Shown here in pieces: positions 47,130 through 55,720 of a stretch of DNA of 64,000 bases (position 1 is its first letter; each line of letters begins with the position of its first letter). The position numbers were made by a program, and so were the translations under genes. The DNA is from Lutibacter agarilyticus (GTDB taxonomy: Bacteria; Bacteroidota; Bacteroidia; Flavobacteriales; Flavobacteriaceae). Under the pieces are notes generated by a model. The model had not been told where the DNA came from, made no database searches, and saw nothing but the letters and a program-made list of their open reading frames with translations. The stretch covers positions 1 to 64,000 of the forward strand of contig NZ_FZNT01000004.1 of assembly GCF_900188235.1 (NCBI RefSeq), written 5' to 3'.

Positions 47130-47582
47130 CTAGTAATTGATTTTTTCTTTTAACATATAAATGTTATCACCAACCTTCCATTCAACCTTCACATCCCATC
47201 TACCTACCACCAACATATCATCTTTTATTAAAACCTGATTCGCAACTAAATTGATTGGCAATGAAAAATCAATTTTATCATTTGACAATCTTTTAAAATC
47301 TATAGTTCCTGTTATTTTTGAAAAATCAAATTCTGAAGGAAATGAAACTAGCAAACCATCAGCTACTTTTTGCAGGGTAACATTCTCTTTTAAATCAAGA
47401 CCTTTATTTTGCTTATCTATTTCTTGCTGATAATTTAACTCATCCATATAATAATTATCAGAAACTAAATGGTGATCATATTCTGGTAAAAAAGTTACTT
47501 TATATACAAATGACAGAATAAAAATAACAAATGAGGCAATAGCAATTATAATACCTGTAGGCCAACTTATTTTAAATTTCAT
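47130..47582 (-). CDS. fixH: FixH family protein
   Basis: The 150-residue protein has one N-terminal membrane helix (about 8-30, WPTGIIIAIASFVIFILSFV). A FixH domain with DNYYMDELNYQQEIDKQ follows, then a beta-rich C-terminal part ending WRVKVEWKVGD-like (here RWDVKVEWKVGD). FixH/CcoH is needed for maturation or stability of cbb3 oxidase. It lies between ccoG and the TauE/SafE gene. Confidence 0.88.
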   Translation of the reverse strand: MKFKISWPTGIIIAIASFVIFILSFVYKVTFLPEYDHHLVSDNYYMDELNYQQEIDKQNKGLDLKENVTLQKVADGLLVSFPSEFDFSKITGTIDFKRLSNDKIDFSLPINLVANQVLIKDDMLVVGRWDVKVEWKVGDNIYMLKEKINY

Positions 47583-47621: not shown

Positions 47622-49037
47622 TTACTTAATAATTAATGGTCCCATAAAATTAGTAGAAGTTTGTTCTATCAACTTATCATTAGAATAAATACCCATTTTT
47701 AATTTTTCTTTTGACGAATTTAAATCTTTTTTATCAATTTCAACAAATAAAGTTCCTTCCTTTAAACCTTGCTTTTTAACATCAACATTACCACCAACCA
47801 TTTCAACAGAACCTTTGTGTGAAATTAACTTGATAGAAACATTGTTTATGTCTTCAGTTGTTTTATTGATAAACTTAACCGTATATACATTTTTAATGGT
47901 GGTTTCTGTGCTTTGAAAAGTTTGCCCTGGCAATCTTAAAATAGTAGCTTCAACATCGGTTCTTAAAAACAACATTGTAACCAATACACCAATTAAAATG
48001 GTTAAAATAACCGAATAAGCAATTAAACGTGCGTTGAATTTGAATGTTGCTTTTTTCTCAATATCATCTTCAGAAGCATAGCGTATTAAGCCTCTATCAA
48101 AACCTGTTTTGTCCATTATTTCATCACAAGCATCAATACAAGCGGTACAGTTAATGCATTCTAATTGGGTTCCGTTTCTAATATCAATACCTGTTGGACA
48201 AACATGTACACATTGTTTACAATCTATACAGTCTCCATTTCCTAAGGTAGCTCTATCTTCATCTTTTCGTAGTTTTTTCCTTCCATTTTCTCCTTCACCT
48301 CTTACAAAATCATACGCAACATTGATTGATTTATTGTCTAACAACACTCCTTGTAATCTTCCATACGGACAAACAATAATACATACTTGCTCTCTGAACC
48401 AAGCAAATACAAAATAAAATACAGCTGTAAAAACTAATAATTTAATAAGCATTCCTATGTTTGCTAAAGGGCCTTCAGTAATATAACCTAAGACCTCATC
48501 AGAACCAATAATATAAGCCAAAAACACATTTGAAATGATAAATGATATTAAAAAAAATGAAAACCATTTTAAGAATCTTTTTCTAATTTTTTCACCATTC
48601 CATTCTTGCTTTTCTAGCTTAATTTGCTTTGACCTATCACCTTCAATTAAATACTCAACTTTTCTAAATACCATTTCCATAAAAATGGTTTGTGGACACA
48701 TCCATCCACAAAAAATTCGTCCGAAAACTACGGTAAATAATATCACAAAAACAACACTTACCAACATTGAAATCACTAATAAATGAAAATCTTGCGGCCA
48801 AAAAGGAAATCCAAAAATGTGAAATTTACGTTCAATTATATTGAACAATAAAAATTGATTTCCTTTAATTTTCACAAAAGGAGCAGCCAACAAAAAAGCC
48901 AACAATACCCAACTTACATACGTACGATACTTATATAAATCACCTTTAGGTTTTTTAGGAAAAATAAAATTTCTTTTCCCAGATTCGTCTATTGTTGCAA
49001 TAGAATCTCTAAATACTTCTTTGTTTTCTTTATCCAT
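47622..49037 (-). CDS. ccoG: Cytochrome c oxidase accessory protein CcoG
   Basis: The 471-residue membrane protein has several helices, with GRIFCGWMCPQTIFMEMVFR and CIIVCPYGRLQGVLLDNKS. Two ferredoxin motifs follow, CIDCKQCVHVCPTGIDIRNG and CINCTACIDACDEIMDK, then a C-terminal Ig-like periplasmic domain. CcoG is a polyferredoxin reported to take part in copper reduction for cbb3 oxidase assembly. It has its own -7 element (49069-49076), downstream of the ccoP terminator. Confidence 0.95.
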   Translation of the reverse strand: MDKENKEVFRDSIATIDESGKRNFIFPKKPKGDLYKYRTYVSWVLLAFLLAAPFVKIKGNQFLLFNIIERKFHIFGFPFWPQDFHLLVISMLVSVVFVILFTVVFGRIFCGWMCPQTIFMEMVFRKVEYLIEGDRSKQIKLEKQEWNGEKIRKRFLKWFSFFLISFIISNVFLAYIIGSDEVLGYITEGPLANIGMLIKLLVFTAVFYFVFAWFREQVCIIVCPYGRLQGVLLDNKSINVAYDFVRGEGENGRKKLRKDEDRATLGNGDCIDCKQCVHVCPTGIDIRNGTQLECINCTACIDACDEIMDKTGFDRGLIRYASEDDIEKKATFKFNARLIAYSVILTILIGVLVTMLFLRTDVEATILRLPGQTFQSTETTIKNVYTVKFINKTTEDINNVSIKLISHKGSVEMVGGNVDVKKQGLKEGTLFVEIDKKDLNSSKEKLKMGIYSNDKLIEQTSTNFMGPLIIK

Positions 49038-49211: not shown

Positions 49212-49859
49212 TTATTCTTCTGGCCAAGTAATGTCTCCTTCAGGAGCTTTTGGATTTGCAGGAGTTGATCCTTGCATTGAAATAATATAACTAGCCAATT
49301 GAATTCTTTCTTCTCTGGTAATTGTAGATTCCCAAGCAATCATACCTTTACCCGGTCTTCCTCCATTTGTTAAGGTATTAAAGATCGATTTAACATCACC
49401 TCCTAATATCCATTTATTATCAGTTAAATTAGGTCCAATACTACCTCCTAAATCAGCTAAATGACAAGCAAAACAAGTTTTTGAAGTAAACAATTCTTTT
49501 CCTTTTGCAATACTTTCAGCATCTGTTAAAACAACAATATTTGAATCATCAAATAATTGTGGATTTGCTGCTTTATAAGCATCAACCTCTGCTTTTCCTT
49601 GTGCTACTTCAGCTTTATATTCTTTCTCTTGGCTATATTCTTCTGAATTATAAAATACTTGAAAAATATAAAATACACTTATAGCAATGGTAATGTAAAA
49701 ACCATACAACCACCAAGGCGGCAATACATTGTCTAATTCTCTAATACCATCATAATCGTGGTCTAATAATATATCTTCCTCTGTCCCTAACTCGTGGGCT
49801 TTTGTCATGGATTTCATGAACTTTTTCCAACCCGATAAATTTTCTGAACTTTTACTCAT
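49212..49859 (-). CDS. ccoP: cbb3-type cytochrome c oxidase subunit III (mono-haem CcoP)
   Basis: The 215-residue protein has a FixP N-terminal domain with DHDYDGIRELDNVLPPWWLYGFY and a membrane helix (about 52-70). One cytochrome c domain follows, with haem motif CFACH near residue 129 and the distal GKGMIAWES Met. Classical CcoP has two haem c groups and about 300 residues. Only one CxxCH is present here, so this is a shorter electron-entry subunit. It overlaps ccoQ by 8 bp. Confidence 0.92.
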   Translation of the reverse strand: MSKSSENLSGWKKFMKSMTKAHELGTEEDILLDHDYDGIRELDNVLPPWWLYGFYITIAISVFYIFQVFYNSEEYSQEKEYKAEVAQGKAEVDAYKAANPQLFDDSNIVVLTDAESIAKGKELFTSKTCFACHLADLGGSIGPNLTDNKWILGGDVKSIFNTLTNGGRPGKGMIAWESTITREERIQLASYIISMQGSTPANPKAPEGDITWPEE

Positions 49860-50049
49860 GGTTAATTTCTTTAATATTAGTTTCGTTATCTAAAGGTAAT
49901 TGGCTTATTTCATCAATACTTCTTTTAGGTAATTTAAAAACAAATACAATCATTGTTATAAAAACCGTAAAAAACAATAATAATGAAATTATTGGATACA
50001 TTTCAACACCATCAATACCTTCTAGATTATGTTTGATAAATTTTAACAT
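49852..50049 (-). CDS. ccoQ: CcoQ-like small membrane subunit
   Basis: The 65-residue protein has one membrane helix (about 18-40, MYPIISLLLFFTVFITMIVFV) followed by a polar tail, and lies between ccoNO and ccoP. CcoQ/FixQ proteins are small and poorly conserved; assignment rests on size, single helix and position. It lies 7 bp after ccoNO. Confidence 0.82.
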   Translation of the reverse strand: MLKFIKHNLEGIDGVEMYPIISLLLFFTVFITMIVFVFKLPKRSIDEISQLPLDNETNIKEINHE

Positions 50050-50056
50050 CCTTTAA

Positions 50057-52225
50057 TTATTTTAGTGCTGTTCTTCCTACTTTAATATCTGTACCTAAAC
50101 GTTGTAAATAGGCAATTAAAGCTACAATCTCTTTATTTTGAATATTACTTGAACCGTAATTTTTCACAAACTCAGGATCTTGTCTTAGGTTATTCTCAAT
50201 TTCTTTAGCTTGTGCCAATAATTGTTGTTTAGCTCCAGCAATATCTTCATCTGAATAAGGCACTCCTAAATTAACTAAACCACCCATTTTATCTTCAATA
50301 TTTGAAGCATTTAAATCGTTTTTAATTAACCAAGAATAACGAGGCATAATTGAACCTGGAGATGTTGAACGTGGATCCATCATATGGTTAAAGTGCCAGT
50401 TATCGTTGTATTTACCACCAACTCTATGTACATCTGGTCCTGTTCTACGTGATCCCCACAAAAATGGGAAATCGTATACAAATTCACCTGCTTTTGAATA
50501 TTCTCCATAACGCTCAACTTCTGAACGGAAAGGGCGAATCATTTGCGAGTGACAGTTATTACAACCTTCTCTAATATAAATATCTCTACCTTCTAATTCT
50601 AAAGGTGTATAAGGCTTTACACTTGATATTGTTGGAACATTTGATTTCACCAAAAATAACGGTACTATTTCAACCAAACCACCAATCAAAATTGCCACAG
50701 TAGTCAAAATAGAAAACAAAACTACTTTACGTTCTAACCAAGTATGAAAACCTTCACCAGCTATACGTTTTCCACTAATTTTTTTCAATGGAGCTGCTTC
50801 AGCTAATTCATCCTCAACCGTTGAACCTGCTTTGGCAGTTTTAATAATATTAATCGCCAATAAAACAAAACCTGTTAAATATAAAGTACCTCCAATAGCA
50901 CGCATTGCGTACATTGGTATTACTTGTGTTACTGTTTCTAAGAAGTTACCGTAAACTAATGTACCATCAGGATTGAATTGTTTCCACAAAAAGGCTTGTG
51001 TAAATCCTGCAACATACAACGGAATTGCATAAAATAAAATACCTAAAGTACCTAACCAGAAGTGTGTATTGGCTAACTTTTTAGAGTACAATGGTGTTTT
51101 CCAAAGTTTTTCGGCTAACCAATAAACAATACCTGCAATCATAAATCCATTCCAAGCTAACGCTCCAATATGAACGTGACCTACAATCCAATCTGTATAA
51201 TGACCTATTGCATTTAAGTTTTTAAATGATAACATTGGACCTTCAAACGTTGCCATACCATAACCTGTAATTGCAACTACAAAGAATTTTAACACTGGGT
51301 TTTCACGAACTTTATCCCACGCTCCACGAAGCGTTAATAAACCGTTAATCATACCACCCCAAGATGGGAAAATCAACATAATAGAAAATACAGTACCTAA
51401 GTTTTGTGCCCACTCTGGTAATGCTGTGTATAATAAATGGTGCGGTCCTGCCCATATGTATAAGAAAATTAATGTCCAGAAGTGAATTATAGAAAGTCTA
51501 TAAGAATACACTGGTCTGTTTGCTACTTTAGGAACAAAGTAATACATTAAACCTAATACTGGAGTTGTTAAGAAAAATGCCACGGCATTATGTCCGTACC
51601 ACCATTGTATCAAAGCATCTTGTACTCCTGAATATATAGAGTAACTTTTAAATGCTGTAATTGGCATTTCAAGATTATTAAATATGTAAAGTACAGCAAT
51701 GGTTATTAGTGTTGCAATATAAAACCAAATTGCAACATAAATATGTCTTTGTCTTCTTTTTAAAATAGTACCAATAAGGTTAATCCCAAATATTACCCAA
51801 ATAAATACAACGGCTAAATCTATTGGCCATTCTAATTCTGCATATTCTTTAGATGAAGTTAAACCTAGAGGTAACGTTATGGCTGCAGCTACAATAATTG
51901 CTTGCCATCCCCAAAAGTGAATTCTACTTAAAACGTCATTAAACATTCTTGCTTTAAGCAATCTTTGGGTTGAATAATAAATTCCAAGGAAAATTCCATT
52001 ACCAACAAATGCAAAAATAACGGCATTGGTATGTAATGGACGCAAACGCCCGAAACTTAACCATGAAATAGCGTTATCAGCTCCTGCAAATTCTAATAAT
52101 CCTGGGAAAACAAAAAGTAGCGCTACTAAAAGCCCTACTAACATACCTACAACTCCCCATAGAATTGTAGCCCAAAGAAACATTTTTACGATTTTATTAT
52201 CATAATAAAACTGTTCTTTTTCCAT
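50057..52225 (-). CDS. ccoNO: Fused cbb3-type cytochrome c oxidase subunits I and II (CcoNO)
   Basis: The 722-residue protein joins catalytic CcoN (about 1-480) to the haem c subunit CcoO (about 500-722). The CcoN part has about twelve helices, with FGRLRPLHTNAVIF, WWYGHNAVAFFLTTPVLG (the haem-copper His-Asn/Tyr region), WAGPHHLLYTALPEW with paired His ligands, and HVHIGALAWNGFM. The CcoO part has REGCNNCHSQMIRPF with the haem c site CNNCH and GSRRTGPDVHRVGGKY. Fusion of ccoN and ccoO is known in Bacteroidota. The enzyme is a high-affinity terminal oxidase. Confidence 0.96.
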   Translation of the reverse strand: MEKEQFYYDNKIVKMFLWATILWGVVGMLVGLLVALLFVFPGLLEFAGADNAISWLSFGRLRPLHTNAVIFAFVGNGIFLGIYYSTQRLLKARMFNDVLSRIHFWGWQAIIVAAAITLPLGLTSSKEYAELEWPIDLAVVFIWVIFGINLIGTILKRRQRHIYVAIWFYIATLITIAVLYIFNNLEMPITAFKSYSIYSGVQDALIQWWYGHNAVAFFLTTPVLGLMYYFVPKVANRPVYSYRLSIIHFWTLIFLYIWAGPHHLLYTALPEWAQNLGTVFSIMLIFPSWGGMINGLLTLRGAWDKVRENPVLKFFVVAITGYGMATFEGPMLSFKNLNAIGHYTDWIVGHVHIGALAWNGFMIAGIVYWLAEKLWKTPLYSKKLANTHFWLGTLGILFYAIPLYVAGFTQAFLWKQFNPDGTLVYGNFLETVTQVIPMYAMRAIGGTLYLTGFVLLAINIIKTAKAGSTVEDELAEAAPLKKISGKRIAGEGFHTWLERKVVLFSILTTVAILIGGLVEIVPLFLVKSNVPTISSVKPYTPLELEGRDIYIREGCNNCHSQMIRPFRSEVERYGEYSKAGEFVYDFPFLWGSRRTGPDVHRVGGKYNDNWHFNHMMDPRSTSPGSIMPRYSWLIKNDLNASNIEDKMGGLVNLGVPYSDEDIAGAKQQLLAQAKEIENNLRQDPEFVKNYGSSNIQNKEIVALIAYLQRLGTDIKVGRTALK

Positions 52226-52246: not shown

Positions 52247-52429
52247 TTAATTATTATTTAATTGTTTGTTCTCTTTTTTTGTGGTAACCAACTCGTCATC
52301 AAAAAGCATACGAACAGATGGCGTGTATGTATCATCATACTGCCCTGATTTGACTGATTTAATAAATGCGATGAAAAAAAATACGGCAACAATAATACTT
52401 ACGCCTATTGTTATGTAGACTACCTCCAT
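52247..52429 (-). CDS. ccoS: cbb3-type oxidase assembly protein CcoS
   Basis: The 60-residue protein has one N-terminal helix (MEVVYITIGVSIIVAVFFFIAF). The conserved CcoS segment AFIKSVKSGQYDDTYTPSVRMLFDD follows. CcoS is required for haem and copper insertion into CcoN. It is the first gene of the oxidase operon and lies 21 bp before ccoNO. An Fnr-type site and a -7 element precede it. Confidence 0.93.
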   Translation of the reverse strand: MEVVYITIGVSIIVAVFFFIAFIKSVKSGQYDDTYTPSVRMLFDDELVTTKKENKQLNNN

Positions 52430-52461
52430 ATTTAATTACGAGTTTTTATAGTTAGTTAACA

Positions 52462-52469
52462 CAAATATA
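52462..52469 (-). promoter_or_regulatory. -7 promoter element of the ccoS-ccoNO-ccoQ-ccoP operon
   Basis: TATATTTG on the minus strand matches TAnnTTTG. The inferred start of transcription is near 52456, which places the Fnr-type palindrome at 52491-52504 at about -41.5, the position expected for a class II activator. Confidence 0.6.
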
Positions 52470-52490
52470 AATTTTATTTCTTAAATTAGT

Positions 52491-52504
52491 ATGATAATTA
52501 TCAA
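52491..52504. promoter_or_regulatory. Fnr-type operator upstream of ccoS
   Basis: ATGATAATTATCAA differs from the E. coli FNR consensus TTGAT-N4-ATCAA at one base and contains the perfect 12-bp palindrome TGATAATTATCA. Its position relative to the ccoS -7 element and a nearby fnr-like gene support function. Binding is inferred. Confidence 0.6.
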
Positions 52505-52546
52505 TTTTAAAAAATAGCTGATTTTATTCTTAAATCCCCTCCTAAA

Positions 52547-54916
52547 TTAAAGCTTTTTTGATATCCAATTCGTAAGAATTGTAACAAAAACAACTATAGA
52601 TATGGAACTTAACGGCATTAGAATTGCAGCTACTACAGGAGTTAATTGCCCCGTTAAAGCAAAATACATTCCAATAATATTATAGCAAAAAGAAACAATA
52701 AAACTTGCTTTTATAACTCCTATTGTTTGTTTTGAAAGCATTAAAAACTCTGGAAATTTATGAAACAATTTAGCATCTAAAATAGCATCACAAGCTGGTG
52801 AAAAAACATTTACGTCTTCTGAAATGGCAATTCCAATAGTACTTTGAGCCAAAGCTCCAGCATCATTTAAACCATCTCCAACCATCATTACTTTATTGCC
52901 TTTACTTTGAAGTTCTTTAATAAACTGTAATTTATCCTCAGGTTTTTGATTAAAATAAAATTCAATATTTGTAGGCAATATTTTCTCTAAATAACTTTTT
53001 TCACCATCATTATCCCCCGATAAAATGATCAATTTGTATTGTCTTGATAGTTCACTAAAAACACTATCTAAACCACTTCTATAACTATTTTTGAACCTAA
53101 AACAACCTTTTAATTGATTGTTTATTTTAATATAAATTGAAGTTTCATTTGTTGTATTTGAATTCACCTCTAAAAAGCTAGATGACCCTAATTTTATATA
53201 ATTATCATTTACTGCCGCTTGTATTCCTTTCCCCAAAATTTCTTCAAAATGTGTTGGCTTTTCCTCGAAGGGTTCTTCGGAAATAAAACGATATAAAGAT
53301 CTGCTTAAAGGATGGTTTGAAGCTCGTAAAACTGTTTTCACCAACCTCAATTCTTCTTCAATCAAATTCTCGCCCTCATAGTTGATTTGAGTTTTATCGC
53401 TTGATGTAATTGTACCTGTTTTGTCAAAAATAATGGTATCTACTTTTGAAATATGTTCAATTGTTTCTGCATTCTTTAAGTAAAATTTATTGTACCCAAA
53501 AATACGCAACATATTTCCTATTGCAAACGGCGCCGATAATGCTAAAGCACAAGGACAAGCAATTATCAACACTGCAGTAATCACATTAAAAGCCATAGAA
53601 GAATCGGTTACATACCAATAAATTCCAGCAAATAGTGCAATTGTTAAAATAGCAATAGTAAAATATTTGCTAATCGTATCGGTTATATTTTTAATGGTAA
53701 TTTCATTTGTTTTACTAAACACATCATTACTCCACAACTGTGTTAAATAACTTTGAGACATGGTGTTTACAACTTCCATTTCTATAGCCCCTGCAGTTTG
53801 CTTACCTCCTGCAAATAATTTATCTCCAGATTGTTTGGAAACTGGCACAGATTCTCCTGTAACAAAACTATAATCAATAGCTGCATTTCCATTTATTAAT
53901 ATTCCATCAACAGGAATTAATTCTTCGTTTCTAATTAGCAAACGATCACCTTTTACAATATCATTTACGGGTATACTCGCTTCAAAAGCATCTATTATTT
54001 TTGTTACAGCAATAGGGAAATACGATTTATAATCACGTTCAAATGATAAAAAATTATAGGTTTTTTGTTGAAAAAACTTCCCTATTAATAGAAAGAAAAC
54101 CAAGCCTGTTAAACTATCAAAAAAACCACTTCCTATATCTAAAAATATTTCAATTGAGCTTCGTATAAATAATACTGAAATACCTATTGCAATAGGCACG
54201 TCTATGTTTAAAATACGATGTTTTAACCCTTTATAGGCAGATATAAAATAGTTTTTTGCTGAATAAAAAACAACAGGAATTGACATAGAAAACATTAAAT
54301 ACCTAAACAGATATTTATATTTTTCTAACCAAAAACCATCTACTTGAAAATACTCTGGAAAAGACAATAGCATGATGTTACCAAAACAAAATGCAGCAAT
54401 GGCAACTTGATAAATTAATGTTTTATCAACTTTGTTTGTTTTAGCATCAGCATCATCTAAACTAATATAAGGTTCGTAACCAATTGAGGTAGATAGTTCT
54501 ACTATTTCTTTTAAAGAAGTTCGCGCATTTTTAAATGTTACACGTAATGTTTTATTTGTAAAATTAACCATTGAAGTAGTAACTCCATTATTTAATTTAC
54601 TTAAATTCTCGAGTACCCAAATACAAGAGCTACAATGAATACTAGGTATATAAAGTTCTACAACAGAAGTGTCACCATCATTAAATTCTAATAGCTTTTC
54701 TACAATAGTTTCGTTTTCTAAATAATTATATTTTCCTTGAATTTCAGATGGGATTGTACCTGGAGTTTTTTCAAAATCATAATAACAACCTAACTCACTA
54801 GTATTCAGTATTTCATAAACTGTTTTACACCCATTACAACAAAAGCTTTTTTCATCAAATAAAATTGCTTTTTTATCACAATCTAATCCACAATGATAAC
54901 AACTTGTTTTACCCAT
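52547..54916 (-). CDS. ccoI: Copper-transporting P-type ATPase of the cbb3 cluster (CcoI/FixI)
   Basis: This P1B ATPase should deliver copper for cbb3 assembly. It has an N-terminal Cys-rich domain (CYHCGLDC, then CCNGCKTVYEI) and an HMA domain with IHCSSCIW. Eight or so helices follow, with TGESVPV, the CPC motif ACPCALALSAPF, DKTGTIT and MVGDGLNDAGAL. I chose the ATG at 54916 (MGKTSCYHCG). An in-frame TTG at 54949 lies upstream of the inferred promoter and is unlikely. It diverges from the Fnr-like gene. Confidence 0.94.
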   Translation of the reverse strand: MGKTSCYHCGLDCDKKAILFDEKSFCCNGCKTVYEILNTSELGCYYDFEKTPGTIPSEIQGKYNYLENETIVEKLLEFNDGDTSVVELYIPSIHCSSCIWVLENLSKLNNGVTTSMVNFTNKTLRVTFKNARTSLKEIVELSTSIGYEPYISLDDADAKTNKVDKTLIYQVAIAAFCFGNIMLLSFPEYFQVDGFWLEKYKYLFRYLMFSMSIPVVFYSAKNYFISAYKGLKHRILNIDVPIAIGISVLFIRSSIEIFLDIGSGFFDSLTGLVFFLLIGKFFQQKTYNFLSFERDYKSYFPIAVTKIIDAFEASIPVNDIVKGDRLLIRNEELIPVDGILINGNAAIDYSFVTGESVPVSKQSGDKLFAGGKQTAGAIEMEVVNTMSQSYLTQLWSNDVFSKTNEITIKNITDTISKYFTIAILTIALFAGIYWYVTDSSMAFNVITAVLIIACPCALALSAPFAIGNMLRIFGYNKFYLKNAETIEHISKVDTIIFDKTGTITSSDKTQINYEGENLIEEELRLVKTVLRASNHPLSRSLYRFISEEPFEEKPTHFEEILGKGIQAAVNDNYIKLGSSSFLEVNSNTTNETSIYIKINNQLKGCFRFKNSYRSGLDSVFSELSRQYKLIILSGDNDGEKSYLEKILPTNIEFYFNQKPEDKLQFIKELQSKGNKVMMVGDGLNDAGALAQSTIGIAISEDVNVFSPACDAILDAKLFHKFPEFLMLSKQTIGVIKASFIVSFCYNIIGMYFALTGQLTPVVAAILMPLSSISIVVFVTILTNWISKKL

Positions 54917-54936
54917 TAATATTCCTATTTCATTGA

Positions 54937-54944
54937 CAAATCTA
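54937..54944 (-). promoter_or_regulatory. -7 promoter element of ccoI
   Basis: TAGATTTG on the minus strand matches TAnnTTTG. The inferred transcription start is near 54931, 15 nt before the ATG at 54916, and the palindrome at 54965-54980 would be centred near -41.5. Confidence 0.55.
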
Positions 54945-54964
54945 TTCAATTATTCCATTCTTTC

Positions 54965-54980
54965 TATGATAAATGTCATA
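54965..54980. promoter_or_regulatory. Fnr-type operator between ccoI and the fnr-like gene
   Basis: TATGA-N6-TCATA is an inverted repeat whose core ATGAT-AAAT-GTCAT has the Fnr spacing. It is about -41.5 for ccoI (activation position) and about -30 for the divergent regulator gene (repression position). Confidence 0.5.
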
Positions 54981-54985
54981 AATTT

Positions 54986-55001
54986 TGTTACATTTGTAAC
55001 A
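54986..55001. promoter_or_regulatory. Perfect 16-bp palindrome overlapping the fnr-like gene's -7 element
   Basis: TGTTAC-ATTT-GTAACA is a perfect dyad. It contains TACATTTG (54989-54996), the -7 element for the regulator gene that starts at 55031. A protein bound here would block that promoter. The half-site differs from the other Fnr-type sites, so it may bind a different regulator, or part of the symmetry may be chance. Confidence 0.45.
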
Positions 55002-55030: not shown

Positions 55031-55720
55031 ATGCCTTCAAAGTGCAGACAATGCATCATTAAGAGGTTCAATGCACTTAAAACATTGACCCATGATGAAT
55101 TAGAGAAATTTTCAGATCACAAAACTTCACTTCTTATAAAAAAAGGTGAGAATTTAATGACTGAAGGTAACTCCATAAATGGTTTATATTGTATTAAAGA
55201 TGGGAAAGGAAAATTGACTAAACTTAATACGAATGGTAAAGAGCAAATTATAAAATTTGTAAAAGGAGGAGATATTTTAGGACATCGTTCAATTTTAAGT
55301 GAAGAATTGGTTGGCCTAAATGCTATTGCCTTAGAAGACATGCATGTTTGCTTTATACCTAAAGGTGATATTTTAGATACTATTAGGGAAAATAATAACT
55401 TCTCATTAGATTTAATGCGAAATATTTCACATCAATTAAATGAAGCAAATACTTCTATTTCACAAATGGCTCAAAAGCCTGTAAAAGATCGTTTGGCTGA
55501 AACGCTACTTCATTTAGAAACTATTTTTGGATTAGATAATGAAGATTGTATTGATGTTGTTTTAACTAGAGAAGAAATTGCAAATACTATTGGTACAGCA
55601 ACTGAATCTGCCATTAGACTGCTTTCAAACTTAAAAAAAGATGGTGTTATTGATTTAATTGGAAAAAAAATAAAGATCTTAAATAAAAATTCTCTTAAAA
55701 ATATTTCTGAAGGCTATTAA
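55031..55720 (+). CDS. Crp/Fnr family regulator with partial Fe-S cysteine set
   Basis: The 229-residue protein has a cyclic-nucleotide-binding-type sensor domain (about 20-140), a dimerisation helix and a C-terminal winged helix (VLTREEIANTIGTATESAIRLLSNL). Cys5-x2-Cys8 lies at the N-terminus, and Cys107 in MHVCFIPK aligns with FNR Cys122 (MVCEIPF). The FNR Cys29 equivalent is Asn14. Cys54 might supply a fourth ligand. Given its place beside the cbb3 genes and the Fnr-type sites, it is probably the oxygen-responsive activator of the cluster. A DNR/NO-sensing type remains possible. Confidence 0.9.
   Translation: MPSKCRQCIIKRFNALKTLTHDELEKFSDHKTSLLIKKGENLMTEGNSINGLYCIKDGKGKLTKLNTNGKEQIIKFVKGGDILGHRSILSEELVGLNAIALEDMHVCFIPKGDILDTIRENNNFSLDLMRNISHQLNEANTSISQMAQKPVKDRLAETLLHLETIFGLDNEDCIDVVLTREEIANTIGTATESAIRLLSNLKKDGVIDLIGKKIKILNKNSLKNISEGY

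Follow-up and report, generated by a model that had tools for sequence, protein, structure and literature searches.

Two TGA-N6-TCA dyads at the locus of the high-affinity cbb3 oxidase of Lutibacter agarilyticus appear to be sites for a dimeric activator of the Crp/Fnr family, chiefly the protein encoded at 55031–55720, which would act when oxygen is low at the promoters of ccoS-ccoNOQP and ccoI. We put the probability of this reading at roughly 0.78. The sites themselves are secure, while control of both by a single protein is less so. Coordinates refer to the window, the whole 64,000-nucleotide stretch of DNA that was analyzed, unless a contig is named.

The cbb3 genes lie on the minus strand in the order ccoI, then ccoS-ccoNO-ccoQ-ccoP, then ccoG and ccoH. 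The copper-transporting P-type ATPase for cbb3 assembly is encoded by ccoI (52547–54916; PF12156, PF00403, PF00122, PF00702), and the first gene of the cbb3 operon is ccoS (FixS; 52247–52429; PF03597, TIGR00847). Downstream are ccoNO, in which the catalytic and monohaem oxidase subunits are fused (50057–52225; PF00115 plus PF02433, PRK14485), a ccoQ-like gene with a weak PF05545 match (49852–50049), ccoP (49212–49859; PF14715, PF13442), ccoG (47622–49037; TIGR02745) and ccoH (FixH; 47130–47582; PF05751). On the plus strand an fnr-like gene (55031–55720; PF00027, PF13545, PF00325) encodes a Crp/Fnr-family regulator of 229 amino acids. Translation of ccoI probably begins at the ATG at 54916, downstream of the promoter, as orthologues align from that methionine; the TTG at 54949 selected by the ORF caller is an unlikely start. 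Many relatives (for example L067 and L069) carry a conserved leader, AGGTAAAATGAGCAAA, after the ccoI -7 box, and the ATG within this leader is frequently out of frame with ccoI. Judged by CcoN, the closest named relative is Lutibacter oceani (95% identity).

Both promoters are read on the minus strand, with the -7 boxes TATATTTG (52462–52469) for ccoS and TAGATTTG (54937–54944) for ccoI. The dyads, to which no strand is assigned, are ATGATAATTATCAA at 52491–52504 (centre 52497.5) and ATGATAAATGTCAT at 54966–54979 (centre 54972.5), confirming the pairing of dyads with TAnnTTTG boxes that an initial annotation of this DNA had described. The distance from dyad centre to the last G of the box (52462 and 54937) is exactly 35.5 bp in both cases. 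Because the sigma-A TAnnTTTG box of F. psychrophilum occupies -12 to -5 (PMC9723704), we infer starts at 52457 and 54932, which puts both dyads at about -40.5. The annotation had placed them 41–42 bp upstream of the start; this holds for most relatives (-41.5), but in the window the dyads sit ∼1 bp nearer the start. It had also reported no TTTG at -33, which is true of both window promoters. In most relatives the -33 slot after the dyad is filled, not by TTTG but by TTTT (35 of 53 ccoI regions and 47 of 72 ccoS regions). The window holds 22 copies of the TGA-N6-TCA pattern alone where 20.4 would be expected, no more than chance provides, and we dropped the dyad by itself as evidence. The combination of dyad and box at 35.5-bp spacing is rare, with 6 matches in the 4.1-Mb genome, 2 of which are the ccoS and ccoI promoters.

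We collected 80 loci through CcoN similarity, blind to the dyads. TGA-N6-TCA is present in 72 of 73 ccoS upstream regions (dinucleotide-shuffle mean 2.8) and in 53 of 54 clean fnr-ccoI intergenic regions (shuffle mean 1.8). The scan of orthologous regions that the annotation had proposed therefore found conservation at both sites, whereas its absence had been named as grounds for rejecting them. In most relatives the distance from dyad centre to box G is 36.5 bp; the window and the Lutibacter relatives L001 and L002 have 35.5 bp at both sites, while L003 and L011 each have it at one of the two. Forty-nine ccoS regions contain the dyad together with an exact TAnnTTTG at 35.5 or 36.5 bp, a combination absent from all 200 shuffles. 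The ccoI box is weaker (AnnTTTG) in most relatives but still stands 36.5 bp from the dyad, and in most loci fnr is divergent to ccoI.

Spacing was then scanned across the L. agarilyticus genome at every value from N8 to N38. Of the 55 matches, N23 accounts for 16, N22 for 6 and N24 for 2, with the other 28 spacings sharing 31 (a background of 1.1 each). From a set of 200 family genomes, the first 60 together give 560 matches at N23 versus 69 at the control spacing N28. Such a sharp spacing peak is the signature of an activator acting from a single position. A class II activator site lies near -41.5 and overlaps the -35/-33 region; relative to the predicted starts, the dyads are at -40.5 in the window and -41.5 in most relatives. 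The class II geometry originally suggested is thus strongly supported by conservation over ∼70 genomes, by the genome-wide peak and by the control spacings. Targets in the same genome were taken as the first downstream ORF, and those other than cco genes were identified by eye from the sequence: they include a second ferredoxin-like gene, Hsp20, a SulP-type transporter and a GAF-type sensor protein. At C17:188697-188769 (L085, L095) a single dyad stands between divergent promoters at N22 and N23, which face a ferredoxin gene and a 2-oxoacid:ferredoxin oxidoreductase gene.

Another locus of this genome (C20:287045-290087; L098) has two predicted short transcripts without ORFs, at ∼2327-2240 on the minus strand and 2580-2660 on the plus strand. 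Each has a TAnnTTTG promoter, a common TCTTTTTCATAGCAATTTTCC stretch, which is complementary to gene starts of the ATGAAAAAG type, and a terminator. Their shared 3' part was matched in all 38 Lutibacter-genus genomes searched, usually in multiple copies, and they match no Rfam family; an Rfam scan of the promoter region and candidate RNA loci likewise gave nothing at gathering score. An FNR-type dyad in the class II position accompanies the minus-strand copy. We rejected an FNR-controlled small-RNA family, as the dyad is found in this genome's copy only and is absent from the copies in other genomes.

Judged from its geometry, the ccoI dyad probably also serves in autorepression at the divergent fnr promoter. 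The fnr -7 box, TACATTTG (54989–54996, plus strand), predicts a start at 55001, and relative to it the dyad is at about -28.5, over the -33 region. On the fnr strand a TAnnTTTG box lies 22.5–24.5 bp from the ccoI dyad in 29 of 54 regions, the window included, a spacing at which the dyad spans the fnr -33 region as a repressor would. The activation spacing of 36.5 bp occurs on this strand in 7 regions, among them those of Arenibacter, Zobellia, Maribacter and Cellulophaga. We also considered the palindrome GTTACATTTGTAAC at 54988–55001 as a second operator and rejected it, since it has only a partial match in L. oceani and is taken as a chance arrangement around the -7 box.

In E. coli FNR an oxygen-labile [4Fe-4S] cluster controls DNA binding; its ligands are C20, C23, C29 and C122, and residues E209, S212 and R213 recognize the half-site TTGAT. 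The protein encoded at 55031–55720 belongs to the Crp/Fnr superfamily (PF00027, 5.8e-17; PF13545, 8.8e-16), and its predicted model (pLDDT 83) matches CRP/FNR structures. The closest NCBIfam model is Fnr (PRK11161), but the score of 92 bits falls below its cut-off of 228. It does not qualify as a cAMP-CRP, as it scores 61 bits with the NCBIfam CRP model (cut-off 266) and has LSA or LNA in the alignment consensus where CRP has the phosphate-binding Arg82 motif RSA. All 42 aligned orthologues share four cysteines, C5 and C8 (a CxxC), C54 and C107, and the set is kept in 16 of 16 distant orthologues that the tree sampled in the phylum's other families and classes. As in E. coli FNR, the CxxC and the beta-roll cysteine C107 align with C20, C23 and C122. 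Unlike FNR, the regulator has Asn or Ser at the C29 position and so does not carry FNR's own set of four ligands; its extra cysteine, C54, falls opposite an Ala in the FNR sequence. The converse is seen in paralogues (one sits at a nitrate-type locus), which carry CxxCx4C and the C107 equivalent but lack C54, and this reciprocity suggests that C54 is the replacement ligand. The cysteine pattern as read from the sequences suggests a variant Fe-S cluster. The best PDB match in both structure and sequence is 2GAU, a Crp/Fnr-family protein of Porphyromonas gingivalis, which when aligned lacks the equivalents of C54 and C107.

Similar differences appear in DNA recognition. The helix TATESAIR keeps the equivalents of E209 and R213, but all 57 orthologues scored have Ile where FNR has S212. 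The site motif, A/C-TGAY-N4-RTCAT, is FNR-like and not the canonical TTGAT, the outer base being A in 207 (83%), C in 35 (14%) and T in 4 of 250 half-sites. The initial description of the sites as Fnr-type therefore stands as regards the TGA-N6-TCA dyad and an FNR-like regulator, but not as regards the half-site, S212 or the cysteine set. By its sequence the regulator is FNR-like, not a canonical FNR.

This assignment can be viewed beside a sister family of the same order, probably the Weeksellaceae, whose proteins form one clade adjoining those of the Flavobacteriaceae in the tree. The CxxC is absent from all 50 sampled proteins; C54 is left in 5 and C107 in 3, never both. This joint decay supports the cysteines working as a unit. 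Nearly all of these proteins retain TATESAIR and the linkage to ccoI. The ccoI dyad is kept in most of the loci (L188-L190, L193-L242) at 35.5, 47–48, 56–58 or 66–67 bp from the box, displacements of about one helical turn (∼10 bp) each that support action through polymerase contact. We lean slightly towards the view that the Bacteroidota have their own class of FNR-like sensor, with a cluster held by the CxxC and the beta-roll C54/C107 where FNR uses three N-terminal cysteines and one other. On this view the cluster was lost in the sister family, which retained the DNA-binding helix, the linkage to ccoI and the dyad, and there the dyad moved away from the promoter in ∼10-bp steps, from class II to class I-like positions.

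The 55031–55720 protein is probably not the sole user of the dyads, as these persist where a four-cysteine regulator was not detected. Two g175 genomes and one g43 genome yielded no such orthologue among the subset of candidates scored, and all three keep the ccoS dyad at 36.5 bp; the two g175 genomes also keep ccoI dyads, at 36.5 and 37.5 bp. Sequence comparison thus indicates that another Crp-family protein can probably use the dyads, and the likeliest alternative users are response-regulator-Crp fusions, which are widespread in the family and present in two copies in the L. agarilyticus genome. It is unlikely, though worth weighing, that a fusion serves as the chief activator at all of the dyads or at some of them: where no four-cysteine fnr orthologue was detected, ccoS, HemN, Usp and Hsp20 genes still have the dyad, the fusion recognition helix (ATETFIR or ATETLIR) has the same E..IR residues, and a fusion gene stands beside a dyad-bearing Usp promoter in two genome pairs. 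Against this, it is the four-cysteine regulator that is divergent to ccoI across the shared dyad in >50 genomes, and the autoregulatory geometry at ccoI belongs to its gene only, not to the fusion. At L245, L256, L259 and L267 the fusion genes adjoin universal-stress-protein genes, with the promoter dyad at N23.

It is very improbable that the dyads mark a repressor site or a promoter shelter instead of activation. The dyad does adjoin the promoter, and the TTTT at the -33 slot of many relatives could be a weak -33 element, but the sharp single spacing, the lack of TTTG at -33 and the ∼10-bp steps in the sister family indicate polymerase contact, and cbb3 is induced at low oxygen, not constitutive (PMC9723704). 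We give hardly any credence, least of all these alternatives, to action at these dyads by the nitrate-locus paralogue at C9:60066, which is 33% identical and has three N-terminal cysteines. Its recognition helix, TTEEQVIR, keeps E..IR; however, its gene (L108, C9:60066-60737, CxxCx4C) sits between nitrate/nitrite transporter-like and NrtA-like genes, and in many dyad-bearing genomes the ccoI-linked copy is the only one at E<=1e-20.

Taken together, we favor activation by the 55031–55720 protein. A dimer bound in the class II position, near -40.5, would overlap the upstream end of a sigma-A promoter without a TTTG -33 element and would recruit RNA polymerase to ccoS-ccoNOQP and ccoI. An Fe-S cluster on the CxxC, C54 and C107 would survive at low oxygen, when the protein would be active, and oxygen would destroy the cluster, turning the genes off. 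With the ccoI dyad over the fnr -33 region, the active protein would also limit its own synthesis. The Crp/Fnr fold, the TGA-N6-TCA core, a site near -41.5 and an autorepression geometry are all shared with E. coli FNR, while the outer base A/C in place of T and the Bacteroidota TAnnTTTG-type promoter are not. In proteobacteria, Crp/Fnr activators (FNR, ANR, FnrP, FixK) control ccoNOQP and the ccoGHIS assembly genes; here, by contrast, the regulator gene and ccoI diverge from a dyad that they share, the order is ccoS-ccoNO-Q-P and the sigma-A promoter is different.

In F. psychrophilum, a member of the same family, oxygen limitation induces haem genes and the same cbb3 genes as are found here, and the main text of that study names no regulator or site and does not mention Fnr or Crp (PMC9723704). 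A reactor study placed its Flavobacteriales Crp/Fnr homologue in a MalR-like, carbon-sensing group (PMC8510549), which does not imply kinship to the 55031–55720 protein. We found no description of an FNR-type regulon or cbb3 operator in Bacteroidota in the literature searched. With site, spacing and regulator precisely defined, the model lends itself to direct experiment in a phylum that is genetically tractable and has an unusual sigma-A promoter. To judge from the cysteines, an oxygen-sensing cluster may be held here in another way, and the successive dyad positions of the sister family form a natural series showing how an activator site can move along promoters.
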